From a virus: DNA of 30,025 nucleotides. Every line of letters begins with the position of its first letter. The stretch's first letter is position 1. Positions 3,566 through 28,923 of the stretch are shown here, in pieces. The stretch is taken from IMG/VR virus record IMGVR_UViG_3300021425_000120, positions 1-30,025 of that record, one strand, 5' to 3'. The notes beneath the pieces are model-generated. The model had not been told where the DNA came from. It did no database searches and saw only the letters and a program-made list of their open reading frames with translations. A program made the position numbers and the translations under genes.

Positions 3566-3844
3566 ATGGCACTTACTAAAGAATTTAAATACGACTGCGA
3601 AGTTAGGGGCGAATATAAAAACGTCCAAGTTCGCAAAGCAACAATCATAAAAGATGATGGCGTAGAAATTAGCCGCACTTACCATCGCCACGTTCTGCAC
3701 TGCCGCACCAAGTCTGGCGACACTTGGGGCGATACAGACATATCGGGTGAAGATGCAACCGTTCAAGCGATATGTAATGCGGTCTGGACTGACAGCGTTA
3801 AATCAGCTTACGAAACATTTATGGATGCACAGGATACAATCTAA
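3566..3844 (+). CDS. Small conserved fibre-neighbour protein, 92 residues
   Basis: The function is unknown. This charged protein contains GEYKNVQVRKATIIKDDGVE followed by SRTYHRHVLHC, a pattern I recall in small proteins beside marine phage fibre genes. A GGAG about 6 bases before the ATG (3555-3560 region) supports this start. The stop overlaps the ATG at 3844 by one base (CTAATGG), so it is coupled to the next fibre gene. A role as fibre-assembly helper or small virion protein is inferred from position alone. A 45-base gap separates it from the fibre before it. Confidence 0.65.
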   Translation: MALTKEFKYDCEVRGEYKNVQVRKATIIKDDGVEISRTYHRHVLHCRTKSGDTWGDTDISGEDATVQAICNAVWTDSVKSAYETFMDAQDTI

Positions 3845-4929
3845 TGGCATATATAGGTAAACAACCAGGAACAGGGGTACGTAATAGGTTTTTGTATACA
3901 GCCACGGCTGGACAAACAACTTTTACTACATCTGATTCTAACTTAGCTCTTTCATATTCAGATGCTTTGTATATGGATGTATACCTTAATGGCGTACTTC
4001 TAGACCCTGCAAATGACTATACGGCTACATCAGGTACGTCTGTTGTGTTAGGGTCTGGGGCAACTGCTGGAGATGTTCTTGAAATAGTTGTCTATGATGT
4101 ATTTTCTGTATTCAATAATACAATAGACGGTAACTTTGATGTAGGCGGTGACTTAACCATTAGTGATAAAATAATTCACTCTGGAGATACAAACACTGCA
4201 ATCCGTTTTCCAGCCGCTGATACGGTGACTGTCGAAACAGGTGGGGCAGAGCGTATGAGAATGACCAGCGATGGGATTCTTGGAATTAATACCTCTTCCC
4301 CTTCAAACGCTAATTTAGATGTTGCGGGTCGTGGTCGTTTCTTACAGGATGCCGCTGCAACAACTGGCGCAGTAATTATTCGTGAAAGCTCTGGTGGTGT
4401 TGGCGGTCACTTACAGTTTGTCACCAATGACAACACTGGTCAGCGTGGTTTTATTGCGGTTGATAGTGCAAGCACTATGAATTTGGGCGGTGTGGCTGTT
4501 AAAGCAACAAGCACTCCGGCATTTTTAGCACGCCCTACATCTACTCAAGCAAATATTGCGAATGACAATTCAGTCGTAACAGTTGCTATGGGAACTGAAA
4601 TTTTTGACCAAGGTGGTAATTTTGCAAGTAATACTTTTACAGCACCCGTCACGGGACGATATCAGTTTAATGTAATTGTTTATTTAACACAGGTTGATAG
4701 CACAGCATCCTATTATCAAGTCCGTTTAGACACTTCCAACAGAACATATTTTGGGCTTTTAGATTTTGCATCGACTGACCTTGGTTTAGGATTTCAAACA
4801 ATAGCGATTAGTGTTCTTGCGGATATGGATGCCAATGACACGGCAACTGTAAATATTCAACAAAATGCTGGAAGCCAGCAAACAGATATAAGTACGGGTT
4901 CAGCATTTAGCGGGTTTTTAGCTTGCTAG
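3844..4929 (+). CDS. Tail fibre protein, MAYIG-type with C1q/TNF-like tip
   Basis: This 361-residue protein has the MAYIG head. Residues about 10-85 are a beta domain (FLYTATAGQTTFTTSDSN, YMDVYLNGVLLDPANDY). The shaft has GNFDVGGDLTISDKI, ERMRMTSDGILGINTSSPS and LDVAGRGRF repeats of the fibre-shaft type. Residues about 230-361 look like a C1q/TNF-like trimeric jelly roll: FDQGGNF..NTFTAPVTGRYQFNV, a middle YYQVRLDTSN strand and a hydrophobic SGFLAC end. In bacteria and phages this fold occurs as a trimeric binding head, so host receptor binding is likely. The final Cys is unusual among the fibres here. It is preceded and followed by small genes and lies in a run of fibre genes. Confidence 0.8.
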   Translation: MAYIGKQPGTGVRNRFLYTATAGQTTFTTSDSNLALSYSDALYMDVYLNGVLLDPANDYTATSGTSVVLGSGATAGDVLEIVVYDVFSVFNNTIDGNFDVGGDLTISDKIIHSGDTNTAIRFPAADTVTVETGGAERMRMTSDGILGINTSSPSNANLDVAGRGRFLQDAAATTGAVIIRESSGGVGGHLQFVTNDNTGQRGFIAVDSASTMNLGGVAVKATSTPAFLARPTSTQANIANDNSVVTVAMGTEIFDQGGNFASNTFTAPVTGRYQFNVIVYLTQVDSTASYYQVRLDTSNRTYFGLLDFASTDLGLGFQTIAISVLADMDANDTATVNIQQNAGSQQTDISTGSAFSGFLAC

Positions 4930-4942
4930 TTAGGAGAAAAAA

Positions 4943-5230
4943 ATGGCAGACATTACGATTACAATTACCTTGGATGATACTCAGCAAAAGATATTGCTGA
5001 ATGACATAACCGATATCAATGAGTGGGTTCAAGATGCAACCACTGGCAAGATAAATAATTGCTGGAAACGGATGCAGTCTGATTGGGTCACAAAACTGAT
5101 GAATGATAGTTCATTCACAGACAGCATACCCAGTAATCAAGCGGATTTTGTAACATTGGTGACAGGACGTTCTGACTATGAGACACGGGCAGAACGTGAT
5201 GCTGGTGGAACGGAGCTATCTAATGACTAG
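4943..5230 (+). CDS. Small conserved fibre-neighbour protein, 95 residues
   Basis: The function is unknown. The N-terminus (ADITITITLDDTQQKILLND) is followed by a helical part with INNCWKRMQSDWVTKLMND and a C-terminal SRSDYETRAERD-like tail (TGRSDYETRAERDAGG). Similar small proteins lie between fibre genes in marine phages. The Shine-Dalgarno site is strong (TAGGAG just before the ATG at 4943). The last 8 bases overlap the start of the next fibre (ATG at 5223), so the two are translationally coupled. A fibre-assembly or minor virion role is inference. Confidence 0.65.
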   Translation: MADITITITLDDTQQKILLNDITDINEWVQDATTGKINNCWKRMQSDWVTKLMNDSSFTDSIPSNQADFVTLVTGRSDYETRAERDAGGTELSND

Positions 5231-6326
5231 CAATGCAAGAGAACTAGCACAGATACCCAGCACTCCGTCAGGGCGGCGCAACCTAATTATCAATGGGGCG
5301 GCAGAAGTAAATCAAAGAGCAACTGGGACAGTTAACAACGGCGAATTAATGGGTGCTGTAGATAGGTTTAAAGGTTTTGCCGCCGCAGGTGGGACATTTA
5401 CTCTCGCTCAGTCTACTGACAGTCCTGCTGGGTTTAATAATTCTATTCTTGCAACGGTAACAAGCGCAGATAGTAGCATTGCATCGGGTGACTTTTATGG
5501 GATTACTCAAAGAATTGAAGGTCAAAATATTTATCATCTAGGCTTTGGTAGTTCTGCGGCCAAAACGCTAACGATTTCTTTTTATGTTAAATCGAGTGTG
5601 ACAGGTACGTTTGGTGGGGCTATTCGGAATAATGCGGCAGACCGTTCTTTTAATTTTTCTTACACGATAAATTCAGCAGATACTTGGGAACAGAAGACTT
5701 ACACTATTGAAGGAGACACAAGTGGAACTTGGCTAACCACTAATGGAATTGGTCTAAGAGTAAGCTGGTCTTTAGGTGATGGTTCAAGTCGGTTACAGGC
5801 GGCTGGTCAATGGGGTTCTGGTAATTTTGCTGGTGTAACAGGTCAGACTAATTTGATAAGCACAGGAAGTGCAACACTACAGCTTACGGGCGTTCAACTC
5901 GAAGTCGGCTCAGTAGCTACTGAGTTTGAGCATCAAAAATACTGTGACACTTATTTAGATTGTCAGCGGTATTATTACAAATCAGGCGACAATTCTACGT
6001 CAAGTGAGGAGTGGTTTCCAGGTGTAGCAACAAATGCTGGCAAAGGTCCGTATTATGCCCTTGGATTAGATGGAATTAATGACCGTGCATATCCAGCATT
6101 ACAATGGCCTGTTCAAATGAGGGCTGCTCCCTCTATTACATTTTATCCAGGTCGCAGTGACTCTACGGCTACAGCAGACAGAATTGCTCGATATAATGAC
6201 AGCGCACTGGTTACATTTACACAATCGCCAACCCCATATTCAAATGGACTAACTGGTTATTTTTTGGGAACGAGTGCTGATTCACCTGCTTATACCTATC
6301 AAATTGTAGCAGATGCGGAGTTATAA
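5223..6326 (+). CDS. Tail fibre protein, GRRNL-type with carbohydrate-binding-like domain (copy 2)
   Basis: I chose ATG 5223 (MTSNARELAQIP) over the in-frame ATG at 5178: the longer form would overlap the previous gene by 53 bases, and GGAG lies at the right distance before 5223. This gives 367 residues. The order matches copy 1: PSGRRNLIINGAAEVNQRATG, a jelly-roll-like region with FYVKSSVTGTFGGAIRN and DTWEQKTYTIEGDTSG, then LTGVQLEVGSVATEFE, a CQRYYYK segment and a distinct tip, ending VADAEL. The head and VQLEVGS block are conserved at the DNA level too, while the tips differ. The likely role is receptor or polysaccharide binding with different specificity from copy 1. Confidence 0.8.
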   Translation: MTSNARELAQIPSTPSGRRNLIINGAAEVNQRATGTVNNGELMGAVDRFKGFAAAGGTFTLAQSTDSPAGFNNSILATVTSADSSIASGDFYGITQRIEGQNIYHLGFGSSAAKTLTISFYVKSSVTGTFGGAIRNNAADRSFNFSYTINSADTWEQKTYTIEGDTSGTWLTTNGIGLRVSWSLGDGSSRLQAAGQWGSGNFAGVTGQTNLISTGSATLQLTGVQLEVGSVATEFEHQKYCDTYLDCQRYYYKSGDNSTSSEEWFPGVATNAGKGPYYALGLDGINDRAYPALQWPVQMRAAPSITFYPGRSDSTATADRIARYNDSALVTFTQSPTPYSNGLTGYFLGTSADSPAYTYQIVADAEL

Positions 6327-18198: not shown

Positions 18199-18666
18199 AT
18201 GGAACCTATATCAACCACGCTGGCAGGCATCGCCCTAGTCCAGAAATCTGTGGAGTTTATCAAGTCTAATATTAACACGGCTAATGATATCAAGGATATT
18301 ATAGGTGCTGTTGATGGTATATTTGCTGGTGAACAACAGATACAGCAAAAAAGATTTGGCAGCAAATCCATTATAGGACAAACAAAAGATGTTGCGTCCT
18401 CTGTTATTGATGCTAAACTAGCTCAAGAACAAATGTACGAAATGAAAAAACTAATTAACTATAGGTTTGGGCATGGTACATGGGAGCAGATAGTAGCAGA
18501 AAGAGCAAGGCGTATACGAGAAGAGAAGGAAGCTATAGCTGAACAGAAGCGCATAGCAAGAAGAAAACAAAAAGAGTTTGAAGAGATGTTGCTTGTGGGC
18601 GGCTGTATCTTTATTGGTGTAGTTATTTTCTTTGGTGTAGCCTTTGGAATATTTACTTTAGGTTAA
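18199..18666 (+). CDS. Tail-anchored coiled-coil membrane protein, 155 residues
   Basis: The function is unknown. The N-terminal two-thirds are amphipathic helices (VEFIKSNINTANDIKDIIGA). Residues about 97-129 are highly charged and likely coiled coil (IVAERARRIREEKEAIAEQK). Residues 130-154 form one strongly hydrophobic segment (LLVGGCIFIGVVIFFGVAFG). It is the last plus-strand gene, just after the holin, so a spanin-like or other lysis role is possible, but no signal peptide or lipobox is seen. A GAGAGAGA tract precedes the ATG as a loose ribosome site. The stop overlaps the converging gmd stop by 9 bases. Confidence 0.65.
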   Translation: MEPISTTLAGIALVQKSVEFIKSNINTANDIKDIIGAVDGIFAGEQQIQQKRFGSKSIIGQTKDVASSVIDAKLAQEQMYEMKKLINYRFGHGTWEQIVAERARRIREEKEAIAEQKRIARRKQKEFEEMLLVGGCIFIGVVIFFGVAFGIFTLG

Positions 18667-19674
18667 GGCAGCTTCCATCATTTCATCAATCATAGATTCA
18701 AAGGTGTACTTAGGTTCCCAGCCTAGTACATCTTTTGCTTTTTGTGGATTGCCTAGCAGTAAATCGACTTCGGCAGGGCGATAGAACTCTGGATTAATTT
18801 TAACAACTGTGTTGTCGTATTCATCCATACCAACTTCCCTTAAGCCTGCTTCGCCTTCCCATTTGATTTTCATATCTACTGCATCGAAACATCTTTCAAC
18901 AAGCTCACGCACAGAGTGTAGCTCACCCGTAGCTAATACATAGTCGTCACCCTCTTCCTGTTGCATCATAAGATACATACCTTCTACATAGTCCTTGGCA
19001 TGTCCCCAGTCTCGTTTAGCATCTAGGTTGCCTAGCTCAATGTGTGGCTGCTTTCCCTTTGCAATATTAGCTACGCCCTGCACAATCTTCTGTGTAACAA
19101 ACTCAGCACCCCGCCACGGTGATTCGTGGTTGAATAGAATACCATTAGATGCGTGCATATTGTATGCTTCACGGTAATTTTTTACAGTCCAGAAGGCAAA
19201 TTGCTTGGCTACCCCATATGGACTGCGTGGATAGAAGGGTGTAGTCTCTGATTGAGGTGTTTCTAAAACCCTTCCATATAGCTCTGAGGTGGACGCTTGA
19301 TAGAATTTGGTATGGTCGGATAGGCCAAGTGTACGAATGCACTCTAAGAGCTTTAAAACCCCTATAGCGTCCACATTAGCGGTGTATTCTGGCACATCAA
19401 AAGAAACACGCACATGAGACTGTGCCGCAAGATTGTAAACCTCGTTAAATAGATTGGTATCAAACAGGTGCATCAGGCTACCTGTGTCAGTTAAATCACC
19501 GTAGTGTAGCTTAAAATTAGGGTTATCTATCAGGTGTGCAATACGTTTGGAAGGCTCTGAGGACACACGCCGTTGTAGGCCGTGTACAATATAACCCTTG
19601 TCAAGAAGTAGTTCTGCTAGATATCCACCATCCTGTCCTGTAACACCAGTAACAAGTGCTGTTTTTTTATTCAT
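18658..19674 (-). CDS. gmd: GDP-mannose 4,6-dehydratase
   Basis: This enzyme converts GDP-D-mannose to GDP-4-keto-6-deoxy-mannose, the precursor of GDP-fucose, GDP-rhamnose and perosamine. The short-chain dehydrogenase fold is clear: GVTGQDGGYLAELL NAD(P) loop (from residue 10), NLAAQSHVRVSFD, catalytic Thr129/Glu131 in STSELYG, Tyr153 and Lys157 in SPYGVAK, GILFNHESPWRGAEFVTQKI, and FYRPAEVDLLLGNPQKA. I chose ATG 19674 (MNKKTALVTG, 338 residues) because GAGGA is 8 bases upstream and a longer start adds an unrelated Lys-rich head. It overlaps the terminase gene by 8 bases. No downstream reductase gene is seen here, so the product must be used by host enzymes or by enzymes outside the window. 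Confidence 0.9.
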   Translation of the reverse strand: MNKKTALVTGVTGQDGGYLAELLLDKGYIVHGLQRRVSSEPSKRIAHLIDNPNFKLHYGDLTDTGSLMHLFDTNLFNEVYNLAAQSHVRVSFDVPEYTANVDAIGVLKLLECIRTLGLSDHTKFYQASTSELYGRVLETPQSETTPFYPRSPYGVAKQFAFWTVKNYREAYNMHASNGILFNHESPWRGAEFVTQKIVQGVANIAKGKQPHIELGNLDAKRDWGHAKDYVEGMYLMMQQEEGDDYVLATGELHSVRELVERCFDAVDMKIKWEGEAGLREVGMDEYDNTVVKINPEFYRPAEVDLLLGNPQKAKDVLGWEPKYTFESMIDEMMEAALT

Positions 19675-20116
19675 CTGATACATCCTCTTCTTCTTCAAAG
19701 TCTTCAGGCCAAGTAGACATAAACAGTTGATACATCTTTTCTTTGCCTATAATTTTCATGGCGGCGCATATCTTTCCCTCAAGACCTGCTACGTCCTGTG
19801 GTCCATCGTCCTCTGCATTATTACCACGCACACGAGACAGTAGCTCAAGAGCCTTGAGTGCAGTTTGACCATTGCCATTTGCTTTGGCTTGCTCATACTG
19901 CTTCTCAAGTTCTGAGACAACATCTACATCTGTGCTGTATTCGTCTTCAAGTTCTTCAAGTCTGCGTTGGATAGCAGGCTCTTGCAGTAGTCTGTATCCC
20001 TGATTGTGTGCAGACTTTTCACTATAGCCAGCAGAGATAGCAGACTGAGTAGCATTCTTATTGATAAGATATGCCTGACAAAACTTTTCTTGACGTTCTT
20101 TAAGCTGCCCTGTCAT
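19667..20116 (-). CDS. terS: Terminase small subunit
   Basis: This 149-residue DNA-recognition part of the packaging motor matches the Terminase_2 type: LKERQEKFCQAYLINKNATQ, SAISAGYSEKSAHNQGYRLL, then EPAIQRRLEELEDEY, the HTH-bearing N-terminal region. A central helical part (about 65-100) would form the oligomer. The acidic tail EEEEDVSDE may contact the large subunit. GAGGA lies 8 bases before the ATG. Its 5' end overlaps the fusion gene by 17 bases and its 3' end overlaps gmd by 8 bases. The position inside a sugar cassette, on the strand opposite the virion genes and apart from any large subunit in this window, is unusual. Confidence 0.85.
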   Translation of the reverse strand: MTGQLKERQEKFCQAYLINKNATQSAISAGYSEKSAHNQGYRLLQEPAIQRRLEELEDEYSTDVDVVSELEKQYEQAKANGNGQTALKALELLSRVRGNNAEDDGPQDVAGLEGKICAAMKIIGKEKMYQLFMSTWPEDFEEEEDVSDE

Positions 20117-22382
20117 TCATAAATTCCTCAAAAGTTTGAAACTCTTGATTGTAGTACGACTGCTCAAAGACTTGGTGAGCGAGAGTGTTGTCACCATAGA
20201 AGTTTATGTTTAGTGCTAGGTCTTTTCTTTCAAGCATCTTCTCAAGGTCTTGGGCAAGGGCAAGTAACTCGCCTGTTGTCCAGAACTTAAACCCGCCAGT
20301 TTCTACATGCAAGTATTTTGGCTGTCCTGCTTCGTCTTTTGCTTCTTTATCTACGGCATCTTCTGGTACGCTACAATCAAATCCAAATAGGTGTAGGTTG
20401 CGATAGCCTAATGTTTCAAGCAGGCCGATGGCTCGTGTAGCAGAGGCAGTGCCGCCAGAGATAAACACTGTGCCTGTAGGAATGGGAAGCTTAGTATTGA
20501 TTACAAACTTATCTTCCCTGTCTACGTCACGTACAGCATCTGTAAAGGCATGAAAGCCTTTTACATTATCTGTCTTAGACATAATGTAATCTACTGCAGA
20601 GATGTCTGTCATGCTTGCAATTACAAATAATGTACTTGGGTCAACTTTTTTAAATAGGTCTTTGCGTTTGACACCGTGTGTACTTACACCGTCTACAGGC
20701 CGTGGGTCAAGAATAACGCAAGCTGTAGGTTTAATGCCTGCTTTAAGAAGGCGGGGATATGAATGCTTGACGCACCACACTTCGGCATTGTATTTTTTTT
20801 GAACTCTTTTAATTTCCTTCATGTCAAGCTGACCACCTGATGCAATAATAGCGTGCTTATTATTTGTTTTGTATTGCTTGACCCAATCAAAGTCATTAAT
20901 CTTTTCTACATTGTAGATAATGTTATTATGGATGTCGTCCTGTGGCATTGAGTCTTTTGGTTTTACAAGAATAGGAACACGCATAAACTCTTGGGGTAAA
21001 TCTTTTTCTTTTGTAGAAATAACTACACCAAGATGAACCTTGCCGCCAAAGGCAGTTGGGTCATCTGATGGAAGAACATATTTATTGGTATCTTTAATTT
21101 CTTCAAAGGTTCTTATGATTCCGTTATAGTCAGGGTTATCTAGAAACTCTTTATCTTCATGTGAGTAATAGTCATCGAACACAATAACAGGTACATCCTT
21201 TAAGAAGGTGTAATCGCTTTTAACTGTGTCGTATGAATGACCGCCATCAATGTAGGCAAGGTCTACGTCATCGAATCTTTTGGACTTCATAGTGTCTTTG
21301 GTATCGCCACAGTTTAGATTGTATGTAAACTTCTTGTTGTTTTCTGCCATCTTAACTGCAAACTCTGCAAGTCGGCGGGATACTGCCTCAGTAGGATTGT
21401 GCGCCTTGATGTTTAGTTCTATCTTATCTGTCTCTTCTGTGGCTTCTTCAAACAAATCAAACCCACGATAGTGTACTTCATCTACATTTTCAAATGCAGC
21501 AAGTGCCATCTCAATGGCTCGACCACCGTTCCACGTGCCTGTCTCTACGATGGTAAAGGTGTCACGGTCTTCAGAGTAGAAGCGAACTATATCTGCAAGT
21601 TGTTTGTAACGCTTTGGACCAACAATATCAGGAGATACTTCCTGTTTCTTTTGCCACTTACGATTACCTTTGTTATGAGTGAAGTGTTCGTTTAACATGC
21701 AGTTCTCAAATACCTCTAAGCCACGTACACCCTCTGACAAATTGCGTACCTTTGAACCATGTGCCTCGTATATCTTGAGCAGACGAGTATACACAAATGA
21801 ATCAGTCCACTCACGATAGCTGAATACTTCGTTAGTATCATATGCGCCACGAATGTCTACGATGTGTGAGCAGGCATTGTGATATGCCATGTTCCATGCA
21901 GTGAAGCCTGTTTCGCTATAGTCAATGTCAATGCGACCAAGGTGAACCATGTCTACCTCGTCAAGCATAATCTTGGCTGCGTCTTCTGCAGTAAATCTTT
22001 TCTTTGTAATGGTGTCAGCATCTAGCCATGCCAGCCAACCCTTGTATTCTTCTTCAATCAACTCGAAGGCAAGGTCAGAGTAGGCGTATACTTTATTACA
22101 GAAGCGCACTGCGTCTAGCCTGTAATTGTATGGTGCTTCTGCAAAGCGTCCGTTCTTGTCTGCGTTACGCTTAATAAAATCATTACGTGCTTCTACATCT
22201 TCTATGTGACGGTAAGTAATAAAGCTTGCCTGCGGCAGTCCGTCTGTTTCTCCTTTATAACCTTCAAGATATACGTGTAGTTTAAAATCGGTTGGTTTCC
22301 ACTTGTTTATAACAGACTCCAGCATAGGCAGTCCATATTCTTCTTCGTGTTTTTTAGGAAAGCTTGTTACAAAAGTATACAT
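20100..22382 (-). CDS. Three-domain glycosyltransferase-like / SAM methyltransferase / DUF115 (Maf-like) fusion
   Basis: This 760-residue protein has three parts. Residues 1 to about 240 look like a GT-A-type glycosyltransferase, with WLAWLDADTITKKRF (Asp-Ala-Asp at 121-123). Residues about 260-460 are a class I SAM methyltransferase of the Methyltransf_24 kind: VETGTWNGGRAIEMA (279-293), YRGFDLFEE, YIDGGHSYDTVKSD (377-390) and FDDYYSHED (402-410). Residues about 505-745 match DUF115, the Maf-type domain: HAIIASGGQLD, WCVKHSYPRLLKAGIKP, DPRP (559-562), SGGTASATRAIGLLETLGY and LFGFDCS. DUF115 proteins attach nonulosonic sugars to flagellin in bacteria. I infer glycan building on a phage or host surface protein. 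GAGGA is 7 bases upstream of the ATG. Confidence 0.8.
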   Translation of the reverse strand: MYTFVTSFPKKHEEEYGLPMLESVINKWKPTDFKLHVYLEGYKGETDGLPQASFITYRHIEDVEARNDFIKRNADKNGRFAEAPYNYRLDAVRFCNKVYAYSDLAFELIEEEYKGWLAWLDADTITKKRFTAEDAAKIMLDEVDMVHLGRIDIDYSETGFTAWNMAYHNACSHIVDIRGAYDTNEVFSYREWTDSFVYTRLLKIYEAHGSKVRNLSEGVRGLEVFENCMLNEHFTHNKGNRKWQKKQEVSPDIVGPKRYKQLADIVRFYSEDRDTFTIVETGTWNGGRAIEMALAAFENVDEVHYRGFDLFEEATEETDKIELNIKAHNPTEAVSRRLAEFAVKMAENNKKFTYNLNCGDTKDTMKSKRFDDVDLAYIDGGHSYDTVKSDYTFLKDVPVIVFDDYYSHEDKEFLDNPDYNGIIRTFEEIKDTNKYVLPSDDPTAFGGKVHLGVVISTKEKDLPQEFMRVPILVKPKDSMPQDDIHNNIIYNVEKINDFDWVKQYKTNNKHAIIASGGQLDMKEIKRVQKKYNAEVWCVKHSYPRLLKAGIKPTACVILDPRPVDGVSTHGVKRKDLFKKVDPSTLFVIASMTDISAVDYIMSKTDNVKGFHAFTDAVRDVDREDKFVINTKLPIPTGTVFISGGTASATRAIGLLETLGYRNLHLFGFDCSVPEDAVDKEAKDEAGQPKYLHVETGGFKFWTTGELLALAQDLEKMLERKDLALNINFYGDNTLAHQVFEQSYYNQEFQTFEEFMNDRAA

Positions 22383-22384
22383 AA

Positions 22385-23059
22385 TTATTCCTCTGAGTAT
22401 AGGTTATTAAATATTTGGTTAGTATCAAGAGTATAATCTAGGTCGCTCTTGCTGTAATGTATTTGTGCTGATGGCTTGAAGTCTGGCGCACCTTCACCTG
22501 TAACAAACCAGGCTGGGTGCGTGACCCTGACTCTGTTGTTAGGTAGGGCGACAATGTTTCCTGTCCATTCACCTGCGTCCAGAAGGCAAAGCACGTGGCT
22601 TTGTTTGTGCTGTGCTGGGTCATCAGCTATCTCACTATCTGTGTAGTCCACAGTAAATAGATACTTGGCAGGGTACATATCTCCATCAATCTTTACAAGC
22701 CAAGGGCATGGAGTTGCTCTGTCAATTGTGTACACAGAGTGTGTGCGTGATGCACAATCCCACGGCTGTGCTTGGTGTGTTGCCATTTGTTGAGGCCAGT
22801 CTTCTACGGGGATATCACCCATCAAGCCTGTAATAGGCATCCTTGCCCACATTGCACCACCATGCACCGTATCTTCTTCTTCGCCTTCGGCAGATATGCC
22901 TGTAAATATAATCTGGAAACTAAGACACCTGTTGGGCATTGTCGTAACACCAACAGCCATGCCATGCAGAAACTCTCCGTGATATGCTTCGTGATTGTGC
23001 GTGAAGTCACGGCGCACCCAGCATTTAAAGTGGGGTATGTTGCTATGCAAGAACGCCAC
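22385..23059 (-). CDS. Conserved phage protein of unknown function, 224 residues (GTG start)
   Basis: The start is a GTG at 23059-23057, which overlaps the preceding stop by one base (TAGTG), with GGAG 8 bases upstream. The N-terminus (AFLHSNIPHFKCWVRRDFTH) and GEFLHGMAVGVTTMPNRCLSF segment recall a conserved marine phage family without a known role. The middle has GGAMWARMPITGLMGD and W-rich text. The C-terminal part has PNNRVRVTHPAWFVTGEGAP. No catalytic triad, membrane segment or signal peptide is apparent. It lies in the sugar cassette between two glycosyltransferase genes, so a link with glycosylation is suggested by position only. Confidence 0.65.
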   Translation of the reverse strand: MAFLHSNIPHFKCWVRRDFTHNHEAYHGEFLHGMAVGVTTMPNRCLSFQIIFTGISAEGEEEDTVHGGAMWARMPITGLMGDIPVEDWPQQMATHQAQPWDCASRTHSVYTIDRATPCPWLVKIDGDMYPAKYLFTVDYTDSEIADDPAQHKQSHVLCLLDAGEWTGNIVALPNNRVRVTHPAWFVTGEGAPDFKPSAQIHYSKSDLDYTLDTNQIFNNLYSEE

Positions 23060-23823
23060 TACATATTCTCCAGTATAAGCTGAGTAGTTATTTCTTTTTC
23101 AGTGGCAAGCCATTCTTCTGTGTACGCTTCGTCAATAGGCCGCTTTGGTTTCCAGTCTTTAAACCACGGACCACCTGTCGTAAAGTGAGCATTCTTCGCC
23201 TCAACATGTTCGCTTGAGTGTCCGTCAAGCCAGTTCCATTCTTCATGTATGTCTCCAATCTCGTCATCGTCAAGCCACCCAAAAGAGTGCAGCCAAGAAC
23301 CTGTTTGCAGGTTGACTGCATCAACTGTTAGCTTTTTGTTGCTTGGATGGGAGCAGTTGAACAGCATAAAGCTAGACCAGTTTTTTCTACGATAGCGGGT
23401 TTGTGCAACCCCGTCCATCTTTGCTCCTTCGGGTGGCTCATACTTATGCTTGACACATTGAACAGCAAAGTCTGTTCGCTTGCCATAAACACCAAATATA
23501 CCTTCGATGTCACCACGCACAAACATATCGGCATCCATAAACAATGCCAGTCCCTGATACTGGTTCAATGCAGGAACCAAGAAGCGGGTGAATGTAAAGT
23601 CTGTACTAAAAGGTTTGTTATCGAATACATCGTATCGTTGTTTAGGGTCGTGTTCAAACACACGTGAAGCCCTGCGATACAAACCAATGCGCCGAAGCTC
23701 TGGCTCAAGCAGGGGGATGATGTCATATTTTGTATTGTATTTGCGGATTGAGTGTTCCAGAACTTCGTAAGCTCTTTTATCACGGTCATCATATCCAATA
23801 TAAATAACTGGTCTTCTTTTCAT
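23059..23823 (-). CDS. GT8-like glycosyltransferase
   Basis: This 254-residue protein probably transfers a sugar from a nucleotide sugar. VIYIGYDDRDKRAYEVLEHS at the N-terminus fits the nucleotide-binding start of GT8 family enzymes. ALFMDADMFVRGDIE holds the D-x-D metal motif (near residue 97), and EEWNWLDGH and a late His-rich GHSSEHVEAKNAHFTTG complete the pattern. I chose ATG 23823 (MKRRPVIYIGY) because GGAG lies 7 bases upstream; the ATG at 23886 would add 21 residues unlike the family. It is the first gene after the promoter at 23899-23927. The sugar and acceptor are unknown. Confidence 0.75.
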   Translation of the reverse strand: MKRRPVIYIGYDDRDKRAYEVLEHSIRKYNTKYDIIPLLEPELRRIGLYRRASRVFEHDPKQRYDVFDNKPFSTDFTFTRFLVPALNQYQGLALFMDADMFVRGDIEGIFGVYGKRTDFAVQCVKHKYEPPEGAKMDGVAQTRYRRKNWSSFMLFNCSHPSNKKLTVDAVNLQTGSWLHSFGWLDDDEIGDIHEEWNWLDGHSSEHVEAKNAHFTTGGPWFKDWKPKRPIDEAYTEEWLATEKEITTQLILENM

Positions 23824-23842
23824 AACTGCTCCAATATAAGGT

Positions 23843-23889
23843 GCGGTGGACATGAGAGAGAGAAAGGACTGAAGAACTCTGCCCACCGC
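23843..23889 (-). promoter_or_regulatory. 5' leader with inverted repeat before the sugar cassette
   Basis: The arms GCGGTGG (23843-23849) and CCACCGC (23883-23889) can pair over 7 bases with a 33-base pyrimidine-rich loop on the minus-strand RNA. They sit between the promoter and the GGAG of the first cassette gene. The predicted hairpin is at the very 5' end of the transcript, where it could stabilise RNA or control translation. No poly-U follows, so it is not a terminator. No riboswitch family is recognised. Confidence 0.4.
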
Positions 23890-28846: not shown

Positions 28847-28923
28847 TGGCGAACACGGCAGGACTTGAACCTGCAACCTGCAGATTAGAAGTCTGCTGCT
28901 CTATCCAGTTGAGCTACGTGTCC
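28847..28923 (-). tRNA. tRNA-Arg (anticodon UCU)
   Basis: A full cloverleaf can be drawn on the minus strand. The acceptor GGACACG pairs with CGTGTTC, with discriminator G and an encoded CCA (28847-28849). The anticodon stem GCAGA/TCTGC encloses the loop CTTCTAA, with anticodon TCT at 28887-28889, and a T-arm with GGTTCAAGTCC is seen. It decodes AGA (and AGG by wobble); AGA is frequent in this window's structural genes, for instance in the left-end repeats. Its first 23 bases lie inside the 75-residue coding gene. Confidence 0.9.

Follow-up and report, generated by a model that had tools for sequence, protein, structure and literature searches.

A fusion of predicted glycosyltransferase, methyltransferase and DUF115 domains in a large group of mostly marine phages

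We report on a 30 kb virus record, IMG/VR record IMGVR_UViG_3300021425_000120 (positions 1 to 30,025; this whole stretch of DNA is called 'the window' below), and in particular on one open reading frame (ORF) on its minus strand, which encodes a 760-residue protein with a predicted GT-A glycosyltransferase domain, an S-adenosylmethionine (SAM) methyltransferase domain and a DUF115 (MptE-like) domain. On balance, and with moderate confidence at best, we favour the view that this fusion is a cytoplasmic glycan-building enzyme at the heart of a phage module that also contains a GT8-like glycosyltransferase gene, and that the acceptor is most likely a virion protein. Glycosylation genes are common in phages and their substrates are mostly unknown; the fusion, which is found in hundreds of mostly marine contigs and whose methyltransferase is naturally swapped between a built-in and a separately encoded form, offers a compact system in which glycan, donor and acceptor can be tested. 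If the acceptor is indeed a virion protein, the module would bear on adsorption, or on the evasion of host recognition, by abundant marine phages.

Three domains in one protein

The fusion gene begins with ATG behind a ribosome-binding-like sequence (AGAGGA), and at its 3' end it shares 17 nt with the small terminase gene. The original prediction had recognised three parts in this single phage protein, and all three were recovered, two of them by Pfam and the GT-A part by structure prediction. The features of the protein are as follows; counts out of 133 refer to the distinct full-length family members that we compared.

20100..22382, minus strand: putatively trifunctional fusion protein, GT-A / SAM methyltransferase / DUF115, 760 aa (single ORF; order kept in relatives; purifying selection)
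21648..22382, minus strand: domain 1, residues 1-245, predicted GT-A-fold glycosyltransferase (AlphaFold2; Foldseek matches to GT6; Mosig homologue, 29%)
22014..22022, minus strand: DxD motif of domain 1, D121-A122-D123 (D-x-D in 103 of 133)
21078..21638, minus strand: domain 2, residues 249-435, class I SAM methyltransferase, Methyltransf_24 / TylF-like (PF13578; weak phmmer match)
21246..21248, minus strand: D379, aligned with a predicted metal ligand of TylF-type methyltransferases (D in 70 of 133, G in 63)
21171..21176, minus strand: D403-D404, aligned with the DD metal ligands of TylF-type methyltransferases
20178..21020, minus strand: domain 3, residues 455-735, DUF115 / MptE-like (PF01973; AlphaFold2; Foldseek match to Maf 5mu5)

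Searches of the PDB and Pfam assigned residues 1-248 to no family by sequence, and the GT-A assignment therefore rests on structure prediction. Pfam Glycos_transf_2 matched three of 30 relatives (best E 0.012) and did not match the window protein itself. The AlphaFold2 model of domain 1, built on 30 relatives, has a predicted local distance difference test (pLDDT) score of 86.7 and a predicted template modelling (TM) score (pTM) of 0.88. Foldseek matched it best to GT6 alpha-1,3-galactosyltransferases and blood-group enzymes, and then to xyloside xylosyltransferase (best match E 1.1e-8, probability 1.00, TM ~0.5). Residues 1-245 are thus predicted to form a GT-A glycosyltransferase fold, with which the DxD motif at residues 121-123 agrees. 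In a tree of the DUF115 domain alone, with 65 representatives, loss of this motif maps to two branches.

Domain 2 matches Methyltransf_24 (PF13578) at residues 279-405 with E 2e-8, above the Pfam cut-off, while its match to TylF falls just below. A weak phmmer match leads to the mycinamicin sugar O-methyltransferases 4x7u and 4xvz. The SAM-binding signature (E280, G282, D309) is near-invariant among the 133 proteins, and alignment with TylF-type enzymes places a metal triad, D379/D403/D404, in the window protein; from this alignment, domain 2 is probably metal-dependent. The likeness to TylF and mycinamicin-type metal-dependent sugar O-methyltransferases consists of the Methyltransf_24/TylF similarity and the aligned D...DD triad, but the phage domain is part of a larger protein and the triad is missing from half of the family members sampled.

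Domain 3 matches the MptE-like family PF01973 (formerly DUF115) at residues 487-674 with E 2.2e-12, above the Pfam cut-off, and 33 of 33 members match it as well. It is the most conserved of the three domains: H540, D559, D593, G644 and E705 are present in 133 of 133 proteins, and position 669 is D in 129 and E in four. A search of the PDB by sequence gave chance matches only. With the AlphaFold2 model (pLDDT 85.5), Foldseek returned the Magnetospirillum Maf 5mu5 first (E 2.3e-8), and further matches to the HPPK/MptE of M. jannaschii (8sd5, 2e-5), to SteA (1e-4) and, weakly, to a mammalian sialyltransferase (8e-3). The structure comparison that had been proposed as a check on the original prediction thus gave a GT-A fold for domain 1 and a fold nearest to Maf for domain 3.

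Comparison of domain 3 with Maf and MptE

The description of domain 3 as Maf-like holds for the fold, and fails for the N-terminal Maf domain PF20157 and for two Maf motifs. Maf flagellin glycosyltransferases (Magnetospirillum Maf 5mu5; PseD type) have the same central PF01973 fold and include the best PDB match of domain 3. They differ in having the PF20157 domain and the Maf motifs, whereas the phage protein is fused instead to GT-A and methyltransferase domains. Pfam found PF20157 in two alphaproteobacterial Maf controls and did not find it in the fusion. The motifs E-[LI]-E-N and H-A-x-D, judged by comparison with only two Maf sequences, do not occur in the phage family, which has L-D-P-R in place of the former, and G-F-D without H-A-x-D in place of G-T-D...H-A-x-D; among the few sequences compared, the LDP motif is common to the phage family and a generic DUF115 protein. 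Because PF20157 and both motifs are missing, we conclude that domain 3 is not a canonical Maf and is Maf-like in fold alone.

Canonical Mafs use nonulosonates activated by cytidine monophosphate (CMP), and some accept CMP-Kdo (Kdo, 3-deoxy-D-manno-octulosonic acid; PMC11339370). In contrast to the Mafs, near-complete phage relatives are without the nonulosonate pathway: NeuB and CMP-sugar synthetase were found in none of eight, while positive controls were matched. A distant member, L121, shows a sub-threshold similarity to PseD. One could suppose, from the nearness of the fold to Maf and from the presence of L121 on a contig binned to a Sneathiella metagenome-assembled genome (MAG), that the phage's glycosylation target is host flagellin, as it is for Maf. 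This we find scarcely credible, given the absent Maf N-domain, Maf motifs and nonulosonate genes, a host that is unproven, and no obvious benefit to a lytic phage.

The fold of domain 3 is also shared with MptE, a 6-hydroxymethylpterin diphosphokinase (8sd5, as above), and no pterin gene was seen beside the fusion. It is conceivable, therefore, that the GT8-like enzyme, the GT-A domain and the methyltransferase alone make the glycan, and that the DUF115 domain serves instead as a nucleotide-binding or diphosphokinase-type (MptE/SteA-like) part with a regulatory or substrate-supplying role. The generic LDP in place of the Maf E-x-E-N speaks for such a role, as does the return of M. jannaschii HPPK (MptE) and SteA by the fold search. 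Yet the best match is Maf, at E 2e-8 against 2e-5 for MptE, no other domain of the protein is as conserved, and in Stenotrophomonas phage DLP_6 a GT29 sialyltransferase-like gene adjoins the GT8-like gene, so that we consider this reading improbable.

The same DUF115 fold occurs in MptE-like proteins of uncultured Caudovirales listed in UniProt and BFVD (A0A6J7X5Q0, A0A6J5L5C1 and others). The first of these, a 714-aa protein named 'Methyltransferase domain containing', is 34% identical over 292 columns (TM 0.74), and its name implies a methyltransferase domain; most of the entries are 16-20% identical. All of these annotations are automatic, and none comes with a described function. Our search of a phage collection returned no DUF115 relative even at E 1.

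A widespread family in one phage group

The fusion is no one-off, but is widespread in one phage group. Scans of IMG/VR with a successively broadened query found 21, 43, 142 and finally at least 536 stretches that encode relatives; for this broadest census the best 80 matches were kept, and proportions of clades are not population frequencies. Every complete ORF holds all three domains in the order seen in the window, and the shorter ones end at contig ends. A search of viral genomes for the same three-domain order had been suggested along with the original prediction, and the order is found in all 133 distinct full-length proteins, whose identity to the window protein reaches down to ~39%. 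In the window's clade, the median ratio of nonsynonymous to synonymous substitution rates (dN/dS), computed over pairs that are not independent of each other, is 0.057 for the glycosyltransferase, 0.071 for the methyltransferase and 0.059 for the DUF115 domain. Since these medians are low in each case, all three domains are maintained in that clade by purifying selection. Thus, with 133 distinct proteins that keep the order in one ORF, and with purifying selection in the window's clade, the fusion is not a product of chance or of assembly.

The carriers form a large and mostly marine group. A 59.7 kb relative, G001, whose fusion is 89% identical, encodes a portal protein, a major head protein, a DNA polymerase, a primase/helicase and a large terminase. 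Its closest matches are to DSL-LC04, pelagiphages of the HTVC023P type and roseophages CRP-901/902, at ~52-57% for the capsid protein and 35-41% for the large terminase, and these identities point to a distinct podovirus-like group. The class II reductase is nearest to roseophages (75%), a weak hint of the host. L121 (PAKP01000072.1) is a 33 kb phage contig in the Sneathiella MAG, identical to IMG/VR contig 2788500214_000001; its placement is possibly a weak host hint and possibly binning contamination. As to a bacterial origin, among 84,980 genomes a scan for close relatives found none, and an alignment scan found only L121, a phage contig.

Exchange of the methyltransferase

The metal triad divides the family almost in half. 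It is intact (DDD) in 66 of the 133 proteins; 63 have G...DH or G...DN instead, and four carry other alterations. In the DUF115-only tree, the change to G...DH or G...DN occupies one branch, a clade of 63 proteins. A stand-alone SAM methyltransferase gene lies directly behind the fusion in 62 of these 63, its open frame overlapping the stop of the fusion gene, and in none of the 70 others; for the sole exception, L191, the contig ends 121 nt past the fusion stop. Searches of whole records gave the same division among near-complete genomes, with the stand-alone gene present in 6/6 altered and 0/8 unaltered ones. In the part of the altered clade that keeps DxD, dN/dS is raised for the glycosyltransferase (0.28) and the methyltransferase (0.19), and less so for DUF115 (0.09). 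The altered triad together with the extra gene suggests that methylation is a required step and that a separate enzyme took it over.

As a separate observation, a small protein that resembles Hsp20-type chaperones (cluster u1; L191 4524-5030 and homologues) is encoded near the module in the altered-methyltransferase clade.

Gene neighbourhood

The genes around the fusion in the window are the following.

23059..23886, minus strand: GT8-like glycosyltransferase gene, conserved partner of the fusion (phrog_28018 E 3e-49; 39% to the Mosig GT8 protein)
22385..23059, minus strand: gene for a 224-aa protein, located between the fusion and the GT8-like gene (matches phrog_3704 'ferredoxin' with E 3e-27 and no family in Pfam)
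19667..20116, minus strand: small terminase subunit, which marks the locus as phage (PF03592 E 2e-17; conserved neighbour)
18658..19698, minus strand: GDP-mannose 4,6-dehydratase, a clade-specific accessory (TIGR01472, 499 bits against a cut-off of 415)

The GT8-like and GDP-mannose dehydratase genes are present as the original prediction described, but the dehydratase does not belong to the conserved module, as only the window's clade has it beside the fusion. In loci with enough flanking sequence, the conserved core consists of the GT8-like gene, the fusion and the small terminase. The GT8-like gene lies just under the Pfam cut-off (22.4 against 24.3 bits), and its DxD is intact in 184/184 homologous ORFs. 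The presence of the dehydratase, of ThyX and of the 224-aa gene varies among relatives; the 224-aa gene is absent in many of them, and ThyX is limited to the window's clade. Separately, the GT8-like gene and the dehydratase gene are probably annotated with starts (GTG and TTG) that are too early, relatives aligning from about residues 28 and 12, respectively.

The fusion gene is transcribed in the window with ribonucleotide reductase and ThyX genes. Glycosylated DNA is known in phages, and this arrangement could mean that the module glycosylates and methylates modified bases of phage DNA against restriction. We regard this as very improbable: no hydroxymethylase of the thymidylate-synthase type was found in 13 near-complete relatives, while positive controls were matched; ThyX is confined to a single clade; and a match to a known DNA glycosyltransferase is lacking for every domain.

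Unfused counterparts in deposited phage genomes

Parts of the module occur as separate genes in deposited phage genomes. Pelagibacter phage Mosig (EXVC030M) has a glycan cluster, gp186-191, that resembles the module in that a GT-A homologue (29%) adjoins two FkbM methyltransferase genes and a homologue (39%) of the GT8-like gene; it differs in that the genes are separate, a sulfotransferase is added, and no DUF115 was found. The clusters of Caulobacter phage C1 and of DLP_6 are alike in having GT8-like and methyltransferase genes side by side, but these are unfused, no GT-A homologue was detected with them, and no DUF115 rises above the cut-off. In C1, the cluster also holds GT9 and a sub-threshold MptE-like gene; its methyltransferase gene is a homologue of the stand-alone one. 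In DLP_6, the pair lies directly beside the GT29 sialyltransferase-like gene.

That DLP_6 gene (L206, KU682439, 8910-9701) is deposited as hypothetical and matches PF00777 (GT29) with E 1.2e-7, above the cut-off, and 2wml/2wnb by phmmer with E 0.003. C1 gp162 and DLP_6 AAY80_202 were considered as DUF115 homologues and set aside, profile comparison being weak; they are leads whose homology is unproven. C1 gp163 and gp164, considered as homologues of domain 1, gave no match to it.

In two phages the placement of such genes is informative about the acceptor. In MW202512, the GT8-like/methyltransferase pair lies between the genes for the major capsid and a stabilization protein, and in CRP-9 a methyltransferase homologue is next to the coat protein gene. 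A virion acceptor is mainly supported by these placements inside virion gene blocks.

The same placements weigh on a different reading, in which the module modifies a glycan of the host surface (the core of the lipopolysaccharide (LPS), the O-antigen or the capsule), for example to block superinfection or to free progeny from receptor, and in which the same three activities would work at the inner membrane, with LPS or a lipid-linked molecule as the acceptor. LPS clusters typically combine cytosolic glycosyltransferases with a GDP-mannose dehydratase and methyltransferases for sugars, and Kdo is an LPS sugar. The Mosig cluster, with its FkbM methyltransferases and sulfotransferase, resembles LPS-type islands noted for pelagimyophages. 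However, no membrane-bound partner (a flippase or Gtr-type protein) was recognised beside the fusion, and the homologues in MW202512 and CRP-9 sit among virion genes. Modification of the host surface is thus possible, if doubtful.

Proposed function

Of the glycosylation originally proposed, the glycan-building role is supported, while the choice of acceptor, virion or host surface, is a matter of inference. We envisage that the GT8-like enzyme and the GT-A domain would transfer hexoses from nucleotide sugars, one donor in the window's clade perhaps being derived from GDP-mannose by the phage's own dehydratase. The methyltransferase domain would then place a capping methyl group on a sugar hydroxyl, depending on metal as TylF-type enzymes do, and the DUF115 domain would add a further sugar, probably a CMP-activated keto sugar made by the host (CMP-Kdo or a nonulosonate), the acceptor most likely being one of the phage's own virion proteins. 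The product, the donors, the order of the steps and the acceptor are all conjectural, and the DUF115 donor is the least certain step. We propose a CMP keto-sugar because Maf is the closest fold to that of DUF115, with sialyltransferases at a greater distance; most Gram-negative bacteria make CMP-Kdo. In its most specific form, the proposal is of a one-protein O-glycosylation machine, widespread in a marine group, that places on a virion protein a methylated glycan with a keto sugar drawn from host pools of CMP-Kdo or nonulosonates; in all of these particulars together we hold it to be unlikely.

Several observations weigh against a glycan-building enzyme with a virion acceptor. The DxD motif of the glycosyltransferase is lost in 30 of 133 proteins, and the chemistry of a DUF115 domain without Maf motifs could differ. 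A CMP donor, if used, must come from the host, since the near-complete relatives are without NeuB and CMP-sugar synthetase. The exchange of the methyltransferase is a single evolutionary event, and so gives no statistical proof; moreover, the fusions of L097, L098, L105 and L010 have altered metal ligands (DNN or DNG) without a stand-alone methyltransferase, which is possibly recent loss or sequence error. Finally, in the window the fusion is transcribed with ribonucleotide reductase and terminase genes, and the virion genes are on the other strand.

Relation to described systems

The idea that phage glycosyltransferases act on virions is not new (see, for example, PMC11256854), and the DUF115-fold entries of uncultured phages are likewise already known; the group of three-domain fusions is apparently undescribed. 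A full-text literature search, with subscription journals mostly outside its coverage, found no paper on phage DUF115 proteins and, in agreement with the original prediction, no described phage system of such composition. A BREX paper that seemed to mention DUF115 was matched through the first characters of DUF1156 and has no bearing here.

Other features

Two genes of the window, at 1261-2277 and 5178-6326, match one and the same family of tail fibres, phrog_4492 (E 2e-56 and 1e-50, respectively), and between them, at 3844-4929, lies a C1q-domain gene; the arrangement possibly reflects receptor-binding variation. A tRNA-Arg (TCT) lies at 28847-28923. In some lineages (L048 1533-3341, L174, L193 and others), the class II ribonucleotide reductase seems, by eye and by clustering, to be replaced at the same position by class I-like subunits (clusters u6 and u9).

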